Program-made: the position numbers and the translations under genes
Origin: Bacteroidales bacterium
GTDB taxonomy: Bacteria > Bacteroidota > Bacteroidia > Bacteroidales > Paludibacteraceae
Direction of reading: 5' to 3'
Length of the DNA stretch: 64,000 nucleotides
NCBI GenBank assembly: GCA_015061165.1
Contig: SUXC01000001.1
Location: 124,001 to 188,000, forward strand
Part shown: positions 27,177 through 37,617 of the stretch, piece by piece
How the letters are laid out: each line of letters begins with the position of its first letter
Numbering within the stretch: the first letter of the stretch is position 1
Notes under the pieces: model-generated
What the model saw: the letters and a program-made list of their open reading frames with translations, nothing else
What the model was told of the DNA's origin: nothing
Database searches by the model: none

Positions 27177-29552
27177 ATGAAAAAGAGTTTCTCTATTATC
27201 TGTACATTGACAATTTTGTTATTTGCCAGTGCATCATGCGACAACGGTAAAAACCCTGCTGTATCGACCACTGAAAATGTAACGATTATCGATGATCCCT
27301 CACAATTATCATCGCGATTAGTTTTTGGCAGCAGTCACAAACTACTACCAGCACGCAAACGCGTGGCAACTACACCCGCACCCGCTATTCCTGCGGATGC
27401 ACTCCCACTCAAAGATGCACCTACCAACTGGAACAATGGTGTGACCCTTACTAAAGGTAAGGCCTACTACATTACCGAGCCATGGACTGGTACCGTCAGC
27501 CAAGATTGGTCAGGCGAAGGCAGCATTGACATTTACATCGCAGCTAACGCTACTTTCTCTGGCGCATGGTGGAACGACGACACTCCTGTAAACATCTACA
27601 TCCTTGAGGGTGCAGTACTCACCTACTGCGAAGCAGGTTGGGATGACAAAGTGAAAATCAAAAAAGCTACCAAAGTATATTGCTGGGGTAACATCACCAC
27701 ACCAGACAATATGGGATTGCGCTTGTACGAAGCTGGTTTGCTGCATATCTACGACACTGAAGGCGAGCCATTCTATGTGAAAGCCAACAACAATACCGTT
27801 AATAACAACAATGCCTACTCTTCCTTCCAAGTAGATCCTGCCTCAGACTTCTATTGCGAGCGCGAGATGTATGTGGAAGGTACAGCTTTGCTCAATGGCG
27901 GTAAGACACATACCACTAACAAGGTGACCATCGGCAAGGATCTATATGTAGAGGGCGCGGCAGATGTGACCTTTGACGATTGCGTATATGTACTACGCGA
28001 GTTGGACTTCAAGTCCAGTCGTTCGGCTGTGGTGAACGTGAACAAATACCTGCAAACCAACACCCTGCTCACCAACCAAGGCGTAGGTACGATGAACCTC
28101 AAGGATGCGTTGTTTGAAATCATGAGCGACGGTATGTTCGTGGACAAAGGCAGCCAACGCATTGTGGTGAATGGCGTAGAAGCTACCTACAAATCCGTAG
28201 TAAAGGTAGGCGGTAAACTCTATTTCGATCACGGTAACGAATACACCAATGTACCTGGCGATGTAGCAGCGGCTGCGTTCCCATGTGGCAACTTGACGGG
28301 CAACTTGGACGTGCAAGGTGACCTGCGCATCAAGTTCTACTACGATGTGGCAGACGAGAAAGCAGTGCTCAACGAAGAGAATATGGTCGTTCCTTCGACC
28401 GTCACTATCGGCACCAACTCATGGCTTCCTGCTTCGGAAGACGGTTGCCGTCCAGAGGTGGGTAATGTGCCTGTCATTGAGGTGTTGCCTCCAGAGAGCA
28501 GTTCTCCTACACACAAGTACTCTGCTACCAGCATTGCTTTCAACGGTGATGTGGTATATTTGAGTTGGCATGCTAATCCAGAGACTAACCTCAAATACGG
28601 AGAGCACAACTACAGCCCATCTGTGGACAGTGCAGACGATTTTGGTGGTATTATTGATGTAATTCATATTGATAGTTATGACATTACCAGTAGCCTCTTT
28701 GAGCAGTCAATGGAGAACAGTGAGTTCAAATACAACCATATCTTCTTCTCCGACAATGTGGTTTACACTGCTGCTACAAGCAGCAAAGTGGGTGCAGCAA
28801 TGACGAAAGTAGCACTCAATAGCAATGGTCGCTTCCCAGCCGTTGAAGAATACAAAGAAGAGCGCGTAAACTTAACGGGTTACTCGGCTAACTGCGTGGA
28901 TCGTATCGGCGATGAATTGGTGACCATCTCTGGCTACTCCAATGGTGGTATCAATAAGTTTGGCTTGAACGACAATACCAACCAAGAGAAGAAGAGTCTC
29001 AACGAGTACACCGAGAACTTCCAAGGTAAATACATCTATTATAATAGGGAGAATGGCAAGGTTGTTACACTCAATAATACCGATCGTGGTATCGTGACTA
29101 TCTACAACACTCAAATGGTGGAAGAAGCATCCTTTGAGGTAGGCTCTATTTATCCTGTTGACGGTAAGAATGTATGTATCTGCGACAACGAGCATATCTA
29201 TGTCTGCAAGGGCCAAAACGGCTTTGGCGTTTACGATTACGCTGGCAATCGTGTAGGTGGTAGCAATCGCAGTGCCAATGGCGTAGATGTGGATGAGCAT
29301 CATATCTACCTCGCTGCAGGCGATGGATTGGTCATATTGGATAAGAATAGCACATACACCGACATAAATGGCAATATCTGCAACCGCTTGATTAAGCGCC
29401 TCTGCTACACTGGTTGTGCCGCTACCAAGGTGAACAACAATACCGATGTAAAACAATCGGCTAACTTCGTGAAGAAAGGTCCTGATGGTCGTATCTATGT
29501 GGCATACGGCATGTACGGCCTCCAAATTTACGAATTGGGCATGACCGAATAA
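27177..29552 (+). CDS. Secreted lipoprotein, parallel beta-rich N-terminus and beta-propeller-like C-terminus
   Basis: Lipobox LLFASASC; repeated blade-like segments (YVCKGQNGFGVYDYAGN, HHIYLAAGDGLVILDKN); promoter TTTG-N19-TATCTTTG upstream. Confidence 0.65.
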   Translation: MKKSFSIICTLTILLFASASCDNGKNPAVSTTENVTIIDDPSQLSSRLVFGSSHKLLPARKRVATTPAPAIPADALPLKDAPTNWNNGVTLTKGKAYYITEPWTGTVSQDWSGEGSIDIYIAANATFSGAWWNDDTPVNIYILEGAVLTYCEAGWDDKVKIKKATKVYCWGNITTPDNMGLRLYEAGLLHIYDTEGEPFYVKANNNTVNNNNAYSSFQVDPASDFYCEREMYVEGTALLNGGKTHTTNKVTIGKDLYVEGAADVTFDDCVYVLRELDFKSSRSAVVNVNKYLQTNTLLTNQGVGTMNLKDALFEIMSDGMFVDKGSQRIVVNGVEATYKSVVKVGGKLYFDHGNEYTNVPGDVAAAAFPCGNLTGNLDVQGDLRIKFYYDVADEKAVLNEENMVVPSTVTIGTNSWLPASEDGCRPEVGNVPVIEVLPPESSSPTHKYSATSIAFNGDVVYLSWHANPETNLKYGEHNYSPSVDSADDFGGIIDVIHIDSYDITSSLFEQSMENSEFKYNHIFFSDNVVYTAATSSKVGAAMTKVALNSNGRFPAVEEYKEERVNLTGYSANCVDRIGDELVTISGYSNGGINKFGLNDNTNQEKKSLNEYTENFQGKYIYYNRENGKVVTLNNTDRGIVTIYNTQMVEEASFEVGSIYPVDGKNVCICDNEHIYVCKGQNGFGVYDYAGNRVGGSNRSANGVDVDEHHIYLAAGDGLVILDKNSTYTDINGNICNRLIKRLCYTGCAATKVNNNTDVKQSANFVKKGPDGRIYVAYGMYGLQIYELGMTE

Positions 29553-29576: not shown

Positions 29577-29611
29577 GGAAAAAGCGGAAACTCTCCGCTT
29601 TTTCCGTTTTA
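29577..29611 (+). terminator. Rho-independent terminator after the lipoprotein gene
   Basis: GGAAAAAGCGGA-AACTC-TCCGCTTTTTCC-GTTTT. Confidence 0.8.
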
Positions 29612-29722
29612 TATTGCTTAAATACGCATGTTTTGTCCTATTTTTTGAGAATTACTGCGTAATATTTGGAAAATTCAAAAATAAAGTGTAACTTTGCAGG
29701 TTGAATTGCTTTATGTAAACAG

Positions 29723-31066
29723 ATGAAGAAGTTATTGGTTATATTTTTTGTATTCTGTGCCACTACCTTGACTTACGCCCAGCAAGACGGGAGCCTGAGG
29801 CTGTTTGACACCTTTGAGCAACGGTTTGTAGCATTGGATTCACTGATTTTTGCGCCTACAGAAGTAGATAGTGCAGTGGTGGATAGTCCAGCCGTTTATT
29901 TTCAACACTATTGGATAGCGCAAGATACTACCAGCAAAGCAGACTCCTTGATTACAGATCATGTAAAAGCCGAAGTGCGTGCCATGAAGCACGAGACAGG
30001 ACTGGCTCTGACAGGACAGACCTACTATCGTCTGGACGAAGGATTGGCGCTCGACGAAGACGATGCTGTATCGCGCTACAAAGCCAAAGTGCAAGTGGAA
30101 CTGCGTTGGAACTTCCTTAACTCCTCTCTCATTCATCGTCAAGGTCGCAAGCAAGCTATTGAGTTGCAAGGCGACATGGAGCGCATAGAGATGGACAAAG
30201 CCAACCTTGCGCGCCTATTGGCTGAGAATCAAGAGTTTTACCAGCAGAAATACGATAGCCTCTTGTCGGGCATTCTGCAACATCGCTTGGTAAACCTCAC
30301 ACTTATGAATGATGCGCAAATGTACTTGTTGGAGCATGGTAATATATCCAGCGATGAGATGTTGGATATCATCAACGACAAAGCTGAAGCCGAGCGAGCC
30401 CTGATGGCAATGTCTAAAACTTATCCGTTAGCAGAGAATTTGTCTCACCCTTCGGGATTGGTGGTAGAGATAGATTCCGCAGGACTGATGGATTATATTC
30501 GCGAACACCATGCGGACCTACATCTGCTGCAATTACAATCCGACCTATTGAAACAACAAATGGAAAATCATTCCTACTGGACCAAACTAAATATCTCACC
30601 ATTTATCCGTTATTCCTATTATTTCCGTACCGAGTTGGCCAACTCTACCAACGTGGACTTTGGTGTAAATTTCAATATTCCACTCACAGGCGAAGCCAGT
30701 AAAAAACGCGCGGCGATGGATGCAAAGCGGATGATTATTGATAAGGAGAAAGAACACACAACTCAAAAAATAATAGAGAATATTGGAGCCATCTTGCTGG
30801 ATATAGAACGACTGAACCGCATCTCTGCTGCCGAATTGAATCGTATGCAGGATTTGAAACACTATTTGCAGGTGCGCAGCAATGCTTACAACAATCGCAA
30901 AGGTGGGTACAATATCATCTTGCGTACAAAAGAATACAATACCTATTTGATATGTTGGGAGAAATTCCTATCGTATCAATATCAACGCGATTGTTTGCTC
31001 ATGACATTGCAGACATATTTGTCGGATATTTCTATATTTGAATTTTGTGTAGGCACAGTTATATAA
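29723..31066 (+). CDS. TolC-like outer-membrane efflux protein
   Basis: Signal peptide ending TYAQ; long helical repeats; GVNFNIPLTGEASKKRAAMDAKRMIIDKEKEHTTQKI matches the OEP second-repeat pattern. Confidence 0.65.
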   Translation: MKKLLVIFFVFCATTLTYAQQDGSLRLFDTFEQRFVALDSLIFAPTEVDSAVVDSPAVYFQHYWIAQDTTSKADSLITDHVKAEVRAMKHETGLALTGQTYYRLDEGLALDEDDAVSRYKAKVQVELRWNFLNSSLIHRQGRKQAIELQGDMERIEMDKANLARLLAENQEFYQQKYDSLLSGILQHRLVNLTLMNDAQMYLLEHGNISSDEMLDIINDKAEAERALMAMSKTYPLAENLSHPSGLVVEIDSAGLMDYIREHHADLHLLQLQSDLLKQQMENHSYWTKLNISPFIRYSYYFRTELANSTNVDFGVNFNIPLTGEASKKRAAMDAKRMIIDKEKEHTTQKIIENIGAILLDIERLNRISAAELNRMQDLKHYLQVRSNAYNNRKGGYNIILRTKEYNTYLICWEKFLSYQYQRDCLLMTLQTYLSDISIFEFCVGTVI

Positions 31067-31089
31067 CATATTAAAATAGCAATTGAGAT

Positions 31090-32316
31090 ATGAGAGACTT
31101 TTCATTTTCTACAGAAGATAGGCAAAACGACATTGAGAACATCCTCAAAGAACGAAAAAAGAAAATAGCGACACAGCAGATTGTGTTCACAATCCTTCTA
31201 TTGTTTATCCTTATTATTATAGGACTGTGGATAGGTAAAAATATCCTATACACAGAGTTTGATGGGTATATTAATTCGGATTTGAATACGCTGCGCCATG
31301 CGGATGATATATATGTTTTGGAAGTAAATAAGAAGGTCGGTGATTTCGTGGTTCCTGGTGATACACTATTTTCGTATGTATATAGCCATATCTTCTATAG
31401 TCATGAGTCCACGGATAGCGAACCTACTGTAGTCGTACAAAACCGAAATATGCGCGTGGATTATGGTCTGGCTCGACAAGATTTGGAAGTTCTGAAAGTG
31501 CGCGTGAAGGAGCTGAAAAAACAATTGGAAACGGAAGATCACAATATCCGCTTTGGTTTGAGCGATAACCTCAAAAAGATGAAGTTGGAGCAGGAACTGG
31601 CTGAAGCCGAAGAACAATATAACGCGCAACGTCGCAAATTGGGTGTCCTATGGAATGCACTCAGTCAAACCAAACAAGCGGTGAAGAAAGCGTATAATCA
31701 CGAATCTGGATTTTTGCAGGTACAAGATATGCGTAATGTGGAAATGATGAAAGAGTTGAACTTGGTGCGCTATTCTATCGCTGTGGATTCTGGTATTGTT
31801 ACTAAAATTTATGTTCCAGAGTTAATCCTTGTACTACGGGGCGAACCTATTATCTCTATGCAGAGTTTTGATTTACATAGGAATAACCTATCTGTGGTTA
31901 CATACGTTATGCCTCGCGAAATGAAACATATCAATCGTAACACGCAAGCAGAAGTGATTGTGAATGATGAAGTGTCGTTCACGGCAAGCGTATTGATGTT
32001 AGGAACCCGTACGGAGGAGATTCCTGGTGAATTGCGTAGTACGCTGTCGCGCGATCATACGGCGGTGATTGTGGTAATGGGAGTAGATACAGGGCAAGTG
32101 ATTCCATTCTGGACACTGGTGAAGAATATCCCTGTGCGCATACGAATCAACAACTTCAAATCGCAAGTGGAAAATGATGATGTGGACTATATGATGTTCC
32201 ACACAACACACGGACTTATCCGCCCACAAAAAAACAAGCAGACAATAGAGCAAGATAGCATTATAGAACCAATAGATACAGTAGTAAACGATACGCTACT
32301 GATACTGAAAGAATAA
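31090..32316 (+). CDS. HlyD/EmrA-like membrane fusion protein
   Basis: Single N-terminal TM, VLEVNKKVGDFVVPGDTLFSY lipoyl-like half, coiled-coil, SIAVDSGIVTKIYVPELILVLRGEPI second half. Confidence 0.75.
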   Translation: MRDFSFSTEDRQNDIENILKERKKKIATQQIVFTILLLFILIIIGLWIGKNILYTEFDGYINSDLNTLRHADDIYVLEVNKKVGDFVVPGDTLFSYVYSHIFYSHESTDSEPTVVVQNRNMRVDYGLARQDLEVLKVRVKELKKQLETEDHNIRFGLSDNLKKMKLEQELAEAEEQYNAQRRKLGVLWNALSQTKQAVKKAYNHESGFLQVQDMRNVEMMKELNLVRYSIAVDSGIVTKIYVPELILVLRGEPIISMQSFDLHRNNLSVVTYVMPREMKHINRNTQAEVIVNDEVSFTASVLMLGTRTEEIPGELRSTLSRDHTAVIVVMGVDTGQVIPFWTLVKNIPVRIRINNFKSQVENDDVDYMMFHTTHGLIRPQKNKQTIEQDSIIEPIDTVVNDTLLILKE

Positions 32317-32334
32317 TCGTAATGACGGAAGAAT

Positions 32335-33744
32335 ATGGAACAATCGATTTATAAGATAGTAGCTAATTCCATGGGGCGCAATATATTGGTCATCAACCAA
32401 TATGTTGATGTAGAGAATAACCCAGAGATTCAAGAAGATATGTTTGATATTGTGTATCTCAATATCGGCAATATGTCGAATAATGAGATAGGATTGTTGT
32501 TGGAAAAGACCTCTCCAATCTTTTCCACGAAATGCTGGATGAAGCCACGATTTATTCAAGCCAATGACCTTGCCCGCATGGGTATGATGGCTGCGCTGAT
32601 AGATGGCAGAGCTAATAGTCCGTTTGATGATTTTGTGACAGAGCATTCCGAAAGCATATTTCAACAGATGGAACAGTTGAATATCAAGCATATTGCCAAT
32701 GTATCTACCTATGTGGCATTTTTTGTGCGCTTGTGCAAATATGCTATCAGCCGTGGAAAATATACTTACACCTCTACTGTTGTTCCTGGTCTATCCGAAG
32801 GACATTCTGCCCTTTTTGCCGCATTGCTATCTAATCATGAAGTGGTAACGCGCAAAGAGTTTTTGGAATTTAACCAAAAACTATTGGATATGGGATATGC
32901 AGAACCACAAGAGTTTGTGGAGCGCGTACACATATGTCCGCATTGCAAAAGTAGTCATCTCATTTACGCAGAATGTTGCCCAAAATGCAATAGCTCCAAT
33001 GTAAATGAGGAACCGATGTTGCACCACTTTAGATGTGCAAATATTTCCCCCGAGAGTACATACGTGTATGATGAAAAACTGCGCTGCCCTAAATGTCGCC
33101 AATACTTGCGCCATATCGGTGTAGATTATGACCGCCCTACGGATATTCATACTTGTGTAGAATGTGGACACACTTTCCTGCATACCAATATGAAAGTGCG
33201 TTGTGCCAACTGTGGGTCTATGCAGCGACCTGCTAACTTGCAATCAATAGATGTGGTTCGATATAAATATACACCCGAAGGCATACAGTCTATTATTAAC
33301 AACGATGCGATGATTAAGATCGGTAAAGACTTGTGGTTTGGCTATTCCAACTTTGATTCCTATCTGCAGCAGTTGCGTCTGTTCTCGCATACCAGCGCGC
33401 TCAACGAAACGCTGTACACCGTGCGACTGCACATGATTATACCTGAACATATAGGCGAGTCAGATCGAATACAACTTCTACGCCGAATGCACGAGGTGTT
33501 CTATAATTATAATTTCTCGTTCAAAGGTAATTATTATTTCCTCTCTTCTAAAAATACAACGGAAGAATCCAAAGAAACTCAACAAGCCATAGAATGGAGT
33601 TTGGAAAATAAATTGGCGAACGTAAAATCAGAATGTCCATTTATACAAGTGAATGAACAGGCTATTTTGGTAAGAGAGTCATCCGAAAATATCGAAAAAT
33701 ATATCCACCGTCTATGTGAACCGATATTTCTAAATAATGAATGA
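32335..33744 (+). CDS. TackOD1-like Cys-rich (zinc-ribbon) protein
   Basis: Five CxxC motifs (CPHC, CPKC, CPKC, CVEC, CANC) in ICPHCKSSHLIYAECCPKCNSSNVNEEPMLHHFRCANI...; resembles TackOD1 domains. Confidence 0.6.
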   Translation: MEQSIYKIVANSMGRNILVINQYVDVENNPEIQEDMFDIVYLNIGNMSNNEIGLLLEKTSPIFSTKCWMKPRFIQANDLARMGMMAALIDGRANSPFDDFVTEHSESIFQQMEQLNIKHIANVSTYVAFFVRLCKYAISRGKYTYTSTVVPGLSEGHSALFAALLSNHEVVTRKEFLEFNQKLLDMGYAEPQEFVERVHICPHCKSSHLIYAECCPKCNSSNVNEEPMLHHFRCANISPESTYVYDEKLRCPKCRQYLRHIGVDYDRPTDIHTCVECGHTFLHTNMKVRCANCGSMQRPANLQSIDVVRYKYTPEGIQSIINNDAMIKIGKDLWFGYSNFDSYLQQLRLFSHTSALNETLYTVRLHMIIPEHIGESDRIQLLRRMHEVFYNYNFSFKGNYYFLSSKNTTEESKETQQAIEWSLENKLANVKSECPFIQVNEQAILVRESSENIEKYIHRLCEPIFLNNE

Positions 33745-33756
33745 TAGACAGTAGCC

Positions 33757-35079
33757 ATGTTGGACTTTTTCTTCCACATAATAGATGAAATTATAGGCGG
33801 TTTTACACGTAATGTTTCATGGCATGTATTGCTGAATACCTATTGGTTTCTGTTTTTTGTGGAATTTCCGCGTTACTATCTATTGGAGATACTTGTTACC
33901 TGTTGGCATAAACTACACTATCGTGAGCGCAAAGAAGAGAAAACTATTGCACGCATGAAATTGTACATTGAGAACCCATTAGTTACAATTTTGGCACCAG
34001 GTAAAAATGAAGGAAAAAATATCTACAAGTTGGTACAATCCCTTCGTGAGCAAACCTATAAGAATTACGAGATTATTATCGTGGATGATGGTTCGGATGA
34101 TGCAACACCATTGATTTGCAAAGATTTGGAAAAAGCAGGATATATAGACCTATTTATTCGCGCTAATTCCAGAGGCGGTAAAGCGAGTGCTGCTAATTTA
34201 GGAACTTTCTATGCCAAAGGTAAATATGTTGTCCACCTGGATGCAGACTCATCGTTGGATAGAGATGCGTTGGAAAATATCCTAATCCCCTTTTATATGG
34301 ATAGCCAAATCAAAGCTGTAGGTGGGGTAGTCAAAGTGAGAAATGCACACGATTCTATTTGCACTGCTATGCAGGCGTTGGAATACCTCAAAACGATACA
34401 AGTTGGTCGTATGGTAACCAGTGAGTTAGGAATTTATCATATCATTTCAGGTGCTTTTGGTGCTTTTGATGCCAAAGTGCTCAAGCAGGTTGGATATTGG
34501 GATATTGGTCCAGGATTGGATGGCGATATTACACAAAAAATCCGCAAGGCGGGCTACAAAGTATATTTTGCAGAAGAGGCTATTTGCATGACTAATGTAC
34601 CTGTGAAATGGAGTGTGTTATTCAAACAACGCAGAAGATGGAGCAAGTCGTTGGTGCGATTCCGATTGCGTAAACACAAGGATATTTTTATGCCCAACAA
34701 GAATTTCTCTTTCTCGAATATGTTGTCTAACTTAGAGAATATTGTCTATGATTTTGGATTCAACTATGTATGGTTCGCTTATGTTCTCTCGCTCATTTTT
34801 ATGCACCCCGACCGATTGGTAGAGATATTTGCTGTGGGATATATTATTCGTATGATTTTTGGTTATATAGGATTCTTGATTATCCAATGGGTCAGCGAAC
34901 GTCCAAGAGAAGAACGCTGGTTGGCAGGATACGTACCGCTATCGACTTTCTATACGGGCTATTTCCTGCGCTTTGCGCGATTGGTGGCACACACGCAAGA
35001 GTTGTTTAATTTCTCTTCCTACAAAGACCCATGGAACCCACGTAAAACATCCGAGGTCGCACAATCGGAGGGAATATAA
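33757..35079 (+). CDS. Membrane-embedded processive family 2 glycosyltransferase
   Basis: APGKNEGKNIYKLVQSL, IIVDDGSDDATP, LDADSSLD (DxD), GLDGDIT, KQRRRWSKSLVRF (QxxRW) and C-terminal TM segments. Confidence 0.88.
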   Translation: MLDFFFHIIDEIIGGFTRNVSWHVLLNTYWFLFFVEFPRYYLLEILVTCWHKLHYRERKEEKTIARMKLYIENPLVTILAPGKNEGKNIYKLVQSLREQTYKNYEIIIVDDGSDDATPLICKDLEKAGYIDLFIRANSRGGKASAANLGTFYAKGKYVVHLDADSSLDRDALENILIPFYMDSQIKAVGGVVKVRNAHDSICTAMQALEYLKTIQVGRMVTSELGIYHIISGAFGAFDAKVLKQVGYWDIGPGLDGDITQKIRKAGYKVYFAEEAICMTNVPVKWSVLFKQRRRWSKSLVRFRLRKHKDIFMPNKNFSFSNMLSNLENIVYDFGFNYVWFAYVLSLIFMHPDRLVEIFAVGYIIRMIFGYIGFLIIQWVSERPREERWLAGYVPLSTFYTGYFLRFARLVAHTQELFNFSSYKDPWNPRKTSEVAQSEGI

Positions 35080-35082
35080 GGT

Positions 35083-35610
35083 ATGCAGAATATGAAACAG
35101 TGGATACTAACATATATGTGCCTAATAATGGCTGTGCTGTGTGCAAAGGCAGAGCCTATGCCACATAACTTGGTGGTGCAATTCTGTGATGCAGAAACAC
35201 TGGTGTTTGCACTGACAGAAAAACCTATTGCCACCCTGCGGGCGGATAGTCTGCTGATAGCAACTGGTAAATTTCAGGCTACATACTTGCGAGATGAGAT
35301 ATGTGATTTCTATTTTCTACAGGCACCGAGGGATACTTCTAACCTCTCCAATCAAACCATTTATATTTCCTATATGAATGACCATATCATTCGGATTCAT
35401 GGCGTGCAGAAAGGTGATCAGATAGTGATGTATAGCGTGGGGGGCAATTTACTACGTACGCATGCTATGAAAAACGATAATGCGTATGTGTTGCATTTGA
35501 GTTCGTATCCCAGGGGGATGTATCTGATTCAAGTGCAGTATTATGCGACCGATAAAAAACATAAAGATTATAAAAGACAACATACTATATCTTTCAAGAT
35601 TATTCGATGA
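35083..35610 (+). CDS. Secreted protein with T9SS-type-A-like C-terminal tail
   Basis: Signal peptide; MYSVGGNLLRTHAMKNDNAYVLHLSSYPRGMYLIQV...HTISFKIIR. Confidence 0.55.
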   Translation: MQNMKQWILTYMCLIMAVLCAKAEPMPHNLVVQFCDAETLVFALTEKPIATLRADSLLIATGKFQATYLRDEICDFYFLQAPRDTSNLSNQTIYISYMNDHIIRIHGVQKGDQIVMYSVGGNLLRTHAMKNDNAYVLHLSSYPRGMYLIQVQYYATDKKHKDYKRQHTISFKIIR

Positions 35611-37589
35611 TGCGAAAAATAAGTGTTATATTGTGCTTTTTGATAGTTTGTGTTTATTGGCTTTCTGCTCAGCAATGGACCGAGATTATGCGCATTGAAA
35701 TGGTGGATTCTACTATCATTCTGCCTGTGGCAAATATTCAGCGTTTTGCATTTGACTATGTGAATGAGGATGAAAGGGATATGACTGAATATATTTCCAT
35801 GGATGATGTAGTAGCGCAAAAAAGGTGTGTGTTATTAGACTTAACGCAGCAAAATGCGCATAATGAGGAATCGGGTGAGCATAGTCGCAATGTATATTCT
35901 GCCCAATACTTACTCAATTTGGCGGGCATACCTTATACGATTGCCACCAATGTGCAGGATGCTATTGCTCAGGCGGATATGATTGTTTGTGCTTCGCCAT
36001 TCAAACAGAGTACACTGACACCCTCCGAGATACTGCTTCTCCAACAATGGATTGAGTCTGGCGGAGTATTCGTGGCTCCTGCTATAACGAATACCAACCA
36101 TCATTTGTGTTCGCTCTTTGGTGTAGAGTCTGTGGTGTATTCTAAGGATAGAAGAACCTTCACATGGCGCGATGAATATTTGGCAGAGAAGGAGTTGGAG
36201 TATTTTAATGAAGTGGAAGAGCGTACTGTGTCGTTGGGCAAAGCACGCAATATAACTGCTGAATCCATCAAAACCTATGGTTATCAGCCCACTACTGCTG
36301 AAGCGATGGCGTATTTTGATGATACAAATATGGCTGCAGTGCTGCGGAATCGTATAGGAAAAGGTATGATATACACCTTTGGTATTTTATGGCGCGATGT
36401 GGTGCAACGTTCGCAGTTAGGAAAAAATACGGCTGCTGCTCGTATTACCAGCAATGGTTTTGAACCTTCAGCGGATGTCTATGCCTTCTTTTTTAGGTCG
36501 TTATATGCCAAGATTAATCCTGTGTCTGTGTGGAAATATACCATTCCTCAGGGCTATGAGTCTGTATTGATTCCTACACACGATTGTGATTCGCGAACGG
36601 CATACGATGAAATGTATTGGGTGTCTGAATATGAAAAAAGTTTGGGACTAAGTGCACACTATTTTCTAACGGTTCATTATTTCCGCGATGCTGGCTATTT
36701 ATCGGATTTCTACAACGCAGAAACTAAGCCCAAAGCGCAGCGTTTGCTCGTGGATGGACATACTGTGGGCAGCCACTCCATTTGCCATTTCCCCGATTTC
36801 AGCAAGACCGAATTGTTTCCCGCTACAGTAGTGACCAAAGAGGCATACGCAGCCTCTGCTCATCACGATAAATCTACGGGTGTGACACAAGGAGGCTCTA
36901 CATGGGCAGAAGTTGGGTTGTCAAAACTAATTATTGAGGAGGATTTAGGTAATCGTGTTCGATCATTCCGCAGTGGACATTTATGTATGAACAAGAATAT
37001 ACCACTCGTGCAACAAGCGGTGGGATATAACTTTTCTTCCTGCTATGCTTCGTGCAATGTGTTGAGCCAATTCCCCTTCCACGAACGAATGGAGAATGAT
37101 TGGGCGGGTGCGCAAGGTGTATTGCAGATTCCACTGCATATATCCGATGTGATTAATGCTAATCCTATGACAGATTCTGCGTGGAATCATGCGCCTGATA
37201 TATGGTTGAAGGTGTTGGAAAAATTGCAGCGTAACTATGCTCCAACCGTATTGCTGATTCACCCAAACCGTGATTGGAAAATGTTTGCCTTGCAACAATT
37301 GGTGGAAGCTATGGATAGAGAAAAGGTTGGGCTATACAATTTTGAAGCATACGGTGATTTCTGGTTGGCGCGCGAAAAGATGGTCTTTGACTATACCTAT
37401 CTTCCCGATAGTAAGTCCATTGTTGTATGGGTGAATGAGCAGATAGAGGAAGAAACCGCGTGTGTATTTGCTGTGGATGTGCAGTCGGGCGTGGTGGTAG
37501 AAAATGCTGTTTTCGTTGATGAAAAGGGGCTGCAATCGAAGTTGCAAATCAAGAAAATGCAAGAGGGAAGGTATTTGCTATCTAAATAA
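35607..37589 (+). CDS. Secreted polysaccharide deacetylase-like protein (NodB fold)
   Basis: Signal peptide; VLIPTHDCDSRTAYDEM, DGHTVGSHSICHFPDF, RSFRSGHLCMNK, PTVLLIHPNRDW fit NodB motifs. Confidence 0.7.
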   Translation: MMRKISVILCFLIVCVYWLSAQQWTEIMRIEMVDSTIILPVANIQRFAFDYVNEDERDMTEYISMDDVVAQKRCVLLDLTQQNAHNEESGEHSRNVYSAQYLLNLAGIPYTIATNVQDAIAQADMIVCASPFKQSTLTPSEILLLQQWIESGGVFVAPAITNTNHHLCSLFGVESVVYSKDRRTFTWRDEYLAEKELEYFNEVEERTVSLGKARNITAESIKTYGYQPTTAEAMAYFDDTNMAAVLRNRIGKGMIYTFGILWRDVVQRSQLGKNTAAARITSNGFEPSADVYAFFFRSLYAKINPVSVWKYTIPQGYESVLIPTHDCDSRTAYDEMYWVSEYEKSLGLSAHYFLTVHYFRDAGYLSDFYNAETKPKAQRLLVDGHTVGSHSICHFPDFSKTELFPATVVTKEAYAASAHHDKSTGVTQGGSTWAEVGLSKLIIEEDLGNRVRSFRSGHLCMNKNIPLVQQAVGYNFSSCYASCNVLSQFPFHERMENDWAGAQGVLQIPLHISDVINANPMTDSAWNHAPDIWLKVLEKLQRNYAPTVLLIHPNRDWKMFALQQLVEAMDREKVGLYNFEAYGDFWLAREKMVFDYTYLPDSKSIVVWVNEQIEEETACVFAVDVQSGVVVENAVFVDEKGLQSKLQIKKMQEGRYLLSK

Positions 37590-37590
37590 A

Positions 37591-37617
37591 AAAAACGGGG
37601 TTACCCGTTTTTTTTAT
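37591..37617. terminator. Bidirectional terminator
   Basis: AAAAAAAACGGG-GTTA-CCCGTTTTTTTT between convergent genes. Confidence 0.75.

Follow-up and report, generated by a model that had tools for sequence, protein, structure and literature searches.

What might a bacterium send through a HlyD/TolC pair that is encoded in one operon with a predicted polysaccharide synthase? The question arises at positions 29723–37589 of a 64,000-nucleotide stretch of DNA, here called the window, from a Bacteroidales bacterium of the Paludibacteraceae (assembly GCA_015061165.1, contig SUXC01000001.1, positions 124,001 to 188,000). HlyD/TolC pairs normally serve pumps, and synthase-dependent polysaccharide pathways are commonly under the control of cyclic di-GMP (c-di-GMP). 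Outer-membrane export in such pathways has been described as the work of a tetratricopeptide repeat (TPR) protein and a beta-barrel (PMC9601211). A preliminary description of the locus had proposed six same-strand genes forming an undescribed system, in which a HlyD/TolC conduit exports a polymer made by a family 2 glycosyltransferase (GT2) and trimmed by a deacetylase. All six open reading frames (ORFs) lie on the + strand at the coordinates first noted, encode 447, 408, 469, 440, 175 and 660 amino acids (aa), and are spaced by gaps of 23, 18, 12 and 3 bp, followed by a 4-bp overlap. From sequence comparison and structure models, we consider it likely, with a probability of about 0.72, that the operon encodes a synthase-dependent polysaccharide secretion system with a HlyD/TolC duct and control by a TackOD1 protein.

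The four-gene core and its distribution

A scan of named genomes with a GT2 alignment returned 349 relatives, from which the best 80 by GT2 similarity were taken for locus counts. Among the 68 loci that could be scored upstream of GT2, a TackOD1 protein was present in 67, a HlyD-like adaptor in 65 and a TolC-like outer membrane efflux protein (OEP) in 62, and the exact order OEP–HlyD–TackOD1–GT2 recurred in 62, so that the arrangement is not due to chance. Median intergenic gaps in the core loci were 4.5, −1 and 15 bp (OEP–HlyD, HlyD–TackOD1 and TackOD1–GT2). The four proteins also co-diverge: across 61 loci their distance matrices correlated with a Mantel r of 0.76–0.90, a value reached in none of 2000 permutations, and mean identity was 0.33–0.36 for the OEP, HlyD and TackOD1 proteins and 0.63 for GT2. 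TackOD1 provided an independent entry point. The family profile PF18551 exceeded its cut-off in 12 of 396 genomes of the phylum, the window's own included, and at the 12 TackOD1 loci found in this way besides the window (one genome, G303, has two) GT2 was the next gene in every case, with the adaptor upstream in most. Sub-cut-off matches that were fetched (L034, L035, L036 and L038) had no GT2 relative nearby and were thus treated as unrelated zinc-ribbon matches.

Judged by this gene linkage, the predicted core comprises four genes, for the TolC-like OEP, the HlyD/EmrA-like adaptor, the TackOD1 protein and the GT2 synthase. The proposed association of these four was borne out by the neighbourhood survey, and the six-gene unit was not, the deacetylase and the small secreted protein being rare additions.

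Carriers span gut and marine Bacteroidota (Paludibacteraceae, Muribaculaceae, Barnesiella, Bacteroides, Paraprevotella clara, Segatella copri, Roseivirga and Salibacter), and some of the gut carriers are cultured, such as Paraprevotella clara and Barnesiella sp. WM24. Occurrence is patchy (family, 1 of 101 genomes; order, 8 of 295), and the system was absent from the congeners searched, four of which were drawn among the family genomes. No clean empty site could be demonstrated in these congeners, because the flanks of their mnmA, the gene that follows the operon in the window, share no further synteny with it.

Several loci are unusual in themselves. G303 carries TackOD1–GT2 twice in a stretch of about 15 kb, once on each strand (L023; G303:C116:52000-71900), one TackOD1 protein with a receiver domain and the other without. 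A typical Bacteroidota copy lies on a contig whose title names the Firmicute Ruminococcus flavefaciens (L091), which is probably a mislabelled metagenome-assembled genome (MAG), and near-identical copies on two contigs of one MAG (L066 and L067) may be an assembly duplicate. In L095 and L097 an extra gene of 338–339 aa 3′ of GT2 gives a weak match to the TackOD1 profile (3e-4).

Predicted synthase, export parts and regulator

The fourth gene (33757–35079, + strand) encodes a 440-aa GT2 protein (PF00535, 2e-25) with the residues D110/D111, D162xD164, D255xD257 and Q291RRRW295 and with transmembrane (TM)-like segments near both ends. The D,D,D,QxxRW motifs were invariant in 13 aligned members. 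Searched against the PDB, the GT2 profile matched chondroitin, hyaluronan and cellulose synthases, and the best NCBIfam model was PgaC/IcaA at 155.6 bits, below the cut-off of 422.3. Some profile matches are non-processive enzymes, and we therefore weighed a reading in which GT2 is non-processive and decorates a lipid, a lipoprotein or a secreted protein, with HlyD/TolC exporting the product. One conceivable acceptor is the secreted lipoprotein-like protein of 791 aa encoded just upstream (27177–29552, + strand; no Pfam family), which belongs to a 55-member cluster of secreted proteins of about 500–880 aa that recurs beside the core, either upstream or downstream. Against such decoration stand the invariant QxxRW, a mark of processivity, together with the TM-like segments, a polymer synthase as the best equivalog and the frequent presence of a dedicated sugar-nucleotide dehydrogenase (see below); we regard it as rather unlikely.

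Upstream, the first gene (29723–31066, + strand) encodes the 447-aa TolC-like OEP, the proposed outer-membrane duct. Its PF02321 match of 8.9e-05 is just above the cut-off, 19 of 39 homologues match the same family (best 9.3e-11), and its profile found no useful match in the PDB. The second gene (31090–32316, + strand) encodes the 408-aa periplasmic adaptor, which on its own has no Pfam match and was assigned as HlyD/EmrA-like from a structure model, Foldseek and the Pfam matches of its homologues, HlyD_3 being found in 14 of 40. The model (pLDDT 82) contains a TM helix (31–49), a barrel-sandwich, an alpha-hairpin (113–203) and a beta-barrel, and its best Foldseek match was EmrA of EmrAB–TolC (E 2.7e-14), which agrees with the HlyD-like identity first proposed; the matches are mostly adaptors of tripartite pumps that dock to TolC-family channels. 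Among the homologues, 7 of 40 carry SPOR and 2 of 40 LysM, which suggests peptidoglycan contact. As the preliminary description had claimed, no TPR/beta-barrel exporter (TPR protein with an outer-membrane barrel of 16–18 strands) was found in the Pfam scan of the six proteins or among sampled accessory genes, and the OEP/HlyD pair stands instead.

The resemblance to EmrA, a drug-pump adaptor, and the usual service of HlyD/TolC pairs to pumps would fit a pair that works in ordinary efflux or type I secretion for a pump with its gene at another place in the genome, with GT2 and TackOD1 as mere neighbours. The fixed order and co-divergence of the four proteins across distant Bacteroidota argue against this, as does the finding that no ABC, RND or MFS pump gene was recognised among the recurring operon gene clusters examined. 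Within the range of the analysis, no outcome that the preliminary description had named as refuting its proposal occurred. We consider this explanation very unlikely.

The third gene (32335–33744, + strand) encodes a 469-aa protein with a receiver-like N-terminal domain, a TackOD1 zinc-ribbon core (171–311) and a degenerate GGDEF-like C-terminal domain (about 340–461). The earlier identification as a Cys-rich TackOD1-like protein was right as to the family (PF18551, E 1.5e-44, 152 bits against a cut-off of 32; CxxC cysteines invariant or nearly so) and too narrow as to the architecture, which is that of a predicted receiver/zinc-ribbon/degenerate-GGDEF regulator. It has no TM segment and is therefore probably cytoplasmic. 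In the window the N-terminal domain is receiver-like only, in a structure model with pLDDT 86; a receiver domain was clear in 6 of 13 TackOD1 relatives, marine members among them (best E 3.7e-25), and five of the six keep the phospho-acceptor Asp (FLD), L031 having FLN. The same model shows a C-terminal alpha/beta domain matching the GGDEF-like assignment. This domain matched PF00990 in 4 of 13 relatives (best 0.0049), and hhalign aligned it with E. coli GGDEF domains over 161 columns (P 2.1e-6; control regions 0.46–0.94). The GGDEF motif itself is absent throughout the aligned members, an RxxD c-di-GMP site occurs in only two of 17 (L030 and L115), and Foldseek of the whole model gave no match below 0.001.

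That no PilZ/c-di-GMP module is visible, as originally noted, proved true of the whole genome: profile searches found no genuine GGDEF and no PilZ in the window's genome, nor in 17 other carrier genomes, where the sole GGDEF match (E 9.6e-4) lies inside a TackOD1 protein of G303. Since all 18 carriers lack both, the TackOD1–GT2 system appears to be independent of c-di-GMP. Hidden c-di-GMP control was rejected on the same grounds in the genomes searched. Hybrid histidine kinases recur among the genes near the core.

Accessory genes and operon boundaries

Two accessory genes complete the operon. The fifth (35083–35610, + strand) encodes a small secreted protein of 175 aa with a signal-like N-terminus and a weak C-terminal domain of the type IX secretion system kind (Por_Secre_tail, 9.8e-4, below cut-off). 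The sixth (35607–37589, + strand) encodes a secreted NodB/CE4-like protein of 660 aa with the motifs THDCD and HSICH; its match to Polysacc_deac_1 is likewise weak and below cut-off (0.0021), and the Asp-His-His metal triad is kept, with D326/D328, H390 and H394 invariant in four members. The residues thus accord with the deacetylase first proposed, and its place in the core does not hold: it was rejected as a core part because it occurs in four operons only, the window and three of the 80 related loci (L045, L108 and L113). The closest syntenic loci, L039 and L040 (GT2 93% identical), have neither the deacetylase nor the small secreted protein, and there mnmA directly follows GT2, so that the window differs by a 2.5-kb pair of extra genes. 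Given this distribution, the trimming of the polymer envisaged by the preliminary description would be at best a local modification.

The commonest extra enzyme is a TviB-like UDP-sugar dehydrogenase (best NCBIfam model TviB: 482 bits, cut-off 592), which is found in 47 of 75 loci and directly after GT2 in 41 of 75. Its frequency suggests that the polymer is an aminouronate. The window's genome has a copy of 53–54% identity elsewhere on the same contig, beside genes resembling a polysaccharide cluster. At L145 (G000:C23:276000-290000) two different UDP-sugar dehydrogenases are adjacent, near glycosyltransferase-like and flippase-like genes, and could be a source of precursors acting in trans for the operon.

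The operon ends are marked by sequence signals. A terminator-like hairpin at 29577–29605 (+ strand; 12 pairs, then a T-rich tail; terminator scan) is predicted to set the operon apart from the upstream 791-aa lipoprotein-like gene, which forms a separate transcription unit here. A Bacteroidota-type −7 promoter box, TAACTTTGC, lies at 29689–29697 (+ strand), about 26 bases 5′ of the first ATG; this motif is over-represented across the window (50 occurrences against 27 ± 4 expected; 0 of 100 shuffles reached 50). At the 3′ end, a terminator-like hairpin, AAAAAACGGG-GTTA-CCCGTTTTTT (approximately 37590–37612), was read off the sequence between the operon and mnmA and is not in the scanner's list. 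Both the promoter-like box and the 3′ hairpin of the preliminary description are thus present.

Proposed mechanism and known systems

We propose that the inner-membrane GT2 polymerises a sugar nucleotide and would hand the growing chain into the periplasm, where the HlyD/EmrA-like adaptor, held by its N-terminal helix, would bridge synthase and TolC-like protein, so that the chain could exit via a sealed HlyD/OEP duct. Control of the synthase would lie with the TackOD1 protein rather than with a PilZ/c-di-GMP module. The input to this protein is probably phosphorylation, as the marine receivers keep the phospho-acceptor Asp, and the signal may be relayed through the zinc ribbons and a predicted, catalytically dead GGDEF domain. 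Where present, the TviB-like dehydrogenase would provide a UDP-aminouronate precursor, which in the window's genome may come from the related enzyme encoded elsewhere; outside the cell, the product may lose acetyl groups to the rare CE4-like protein. The conduit first envisaged is in keeping with a conserved unit among whose operons no pump was recognised; deacetylase trimming, as said, is peripheral to it.

Several points weigh against this mechanism. GT2 has fewer TM-like segments (one N-terminal and about three C-terminal) than BcsA, and its processivity is read from motifs. The OEP resembles the TolC family weakly by sequence, and the established cargo of TolC ducts consists of proteins and small molecules, whereas passage of a polymer has only been proposed, for other systems. 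Support for the degenerate GGDEF domain is modest: a gut-only subset of the C-terminal domains gave no signal (P 0.42), and the best Foldseek match, DosP, had an E of no better than 0.017. The window operon itself has no dehydrogenase gene. Linkage was scored on loci picked by GT2 similarity, many of them from MAGs, with ORFs chosen mechanically.

More broadly, we tentatively suggest, as a possibility short of even odds, a further Gram-negative way of polysaccharide secretion, in which a GT2 feeds an EmrA-like/TolC-like duct under a receiver–zinc-ribbon–dead-GGDEF switch in hosts without c-di-GMP enzymes, with an aminouronate as the surface polymer made by gut Bacteroidota, Segatella copri and Paraprevotella clara among them. 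If true, the synthase has been kept while a duct of the TolC type and a regulator independent of c-di-GMP were swapped in. Such an arrangement would be an additional export mechanism, would indicate how synthase-dependent systems are regulated in bacteria without c-di-GMP and would imply that gut Bacteroidota carry a surface polymer not recognised so far.

Searches of open-access literature, outside which most subscription papers lie, found no description of the GT2, HlyD, TolC and TackOD1 gene combination. Among known systems, that for poly-N-acetylglucosamine (PgaABCD/Ica) shares the GT2 nearest to the PgaC model and, in some loci, a CE4-like deacetylase; in contrast, the GT2 score here is far under the PgaC cut-off, and HlyD/TolC stands where no PgaA-type barrel or PgaD was recognised. 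Alginate secretion employs Alg8, the PilZ–HlyD protein Alg44, the dehydrogenase AlgD and AlgK/AlgE. It is alike in its GT2 synthase, HlyD-type co-polymerase partner and nucleotide-sugar dehydrogenase in the cluster, whereas in the window system no PilZ, TPR protein or AlgE barrel was recognised, and TolC-like and TackOD1 proteins are found instead. For BgsA/BgsB, the review consulted mentions neither HlyD nor TolC.

On the regulatory side, the nearest parallel is BcsE, a REC*–GGDEF* regulator of cellulose secretion (PMC7439463), which has a receiver and degenerate GGDEF in tandem, the arrangement that is proposed for the TackOD1 protein, and is likewise encoded with a polysaccharide synthase. 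BcsE senses c-di-GMP via RxxD and is without TackOD1 zinc ribbons, whereas in window-type regulators RxxD is mostly absent, no GGDEF enzyme was recognised in the hosts, and marine receiver phosphorylation sites are intact. In the open-access literature searched, TackOD1 is mentioned by a single paper. Archaeal REC–TackOD1 regulators share the Cys-rich domain, the receiver fusion and standalone forms; they are reported from type IV pilus loci, with no synthase link reported there (PMC5847659). The present system would give TackOD1 its first functional context.

The closest export model is XcsAB–TolC, a tripartite route for cellulose in cyanobacteria proposed by Maeda et al. (2018) and described in PMC12430437, which lacks validation. 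This model qualifies the word 'undescribed' in the preliminary description, as it already has HlyD/TolC exporting a GT2 polymer, although the gene set itself is new to the literature searched. Both have a GT2 synthase, a HlyD-like adaptor and a TolC-like channel, without BcsB/BcsC. That these three part types make the window system a Bacteroidota cellulose exporter of the XcsAB–TolC type we discount almost entirely, because its GT2 is closer to PgaC and hyaluronan synthase than to BcsA, PilZ is absent, no endoglucanase was seen in the operon clusters and the dehydrogenase implies an acidic sugar. XcsAB–TolC has a synthase with PilZ/PCR and an involved endoglucanase, and its parts do not all share an operon, a lack named as a weakness of the model (PMC12430437); the window system, by contrast, is a single operon with no PilZ (PCR was not searched), a TackOD1 regulator and, in its relatives, often a UDP-sugar dehydrogenase, and would be the operon-encoded counterpart of that model.

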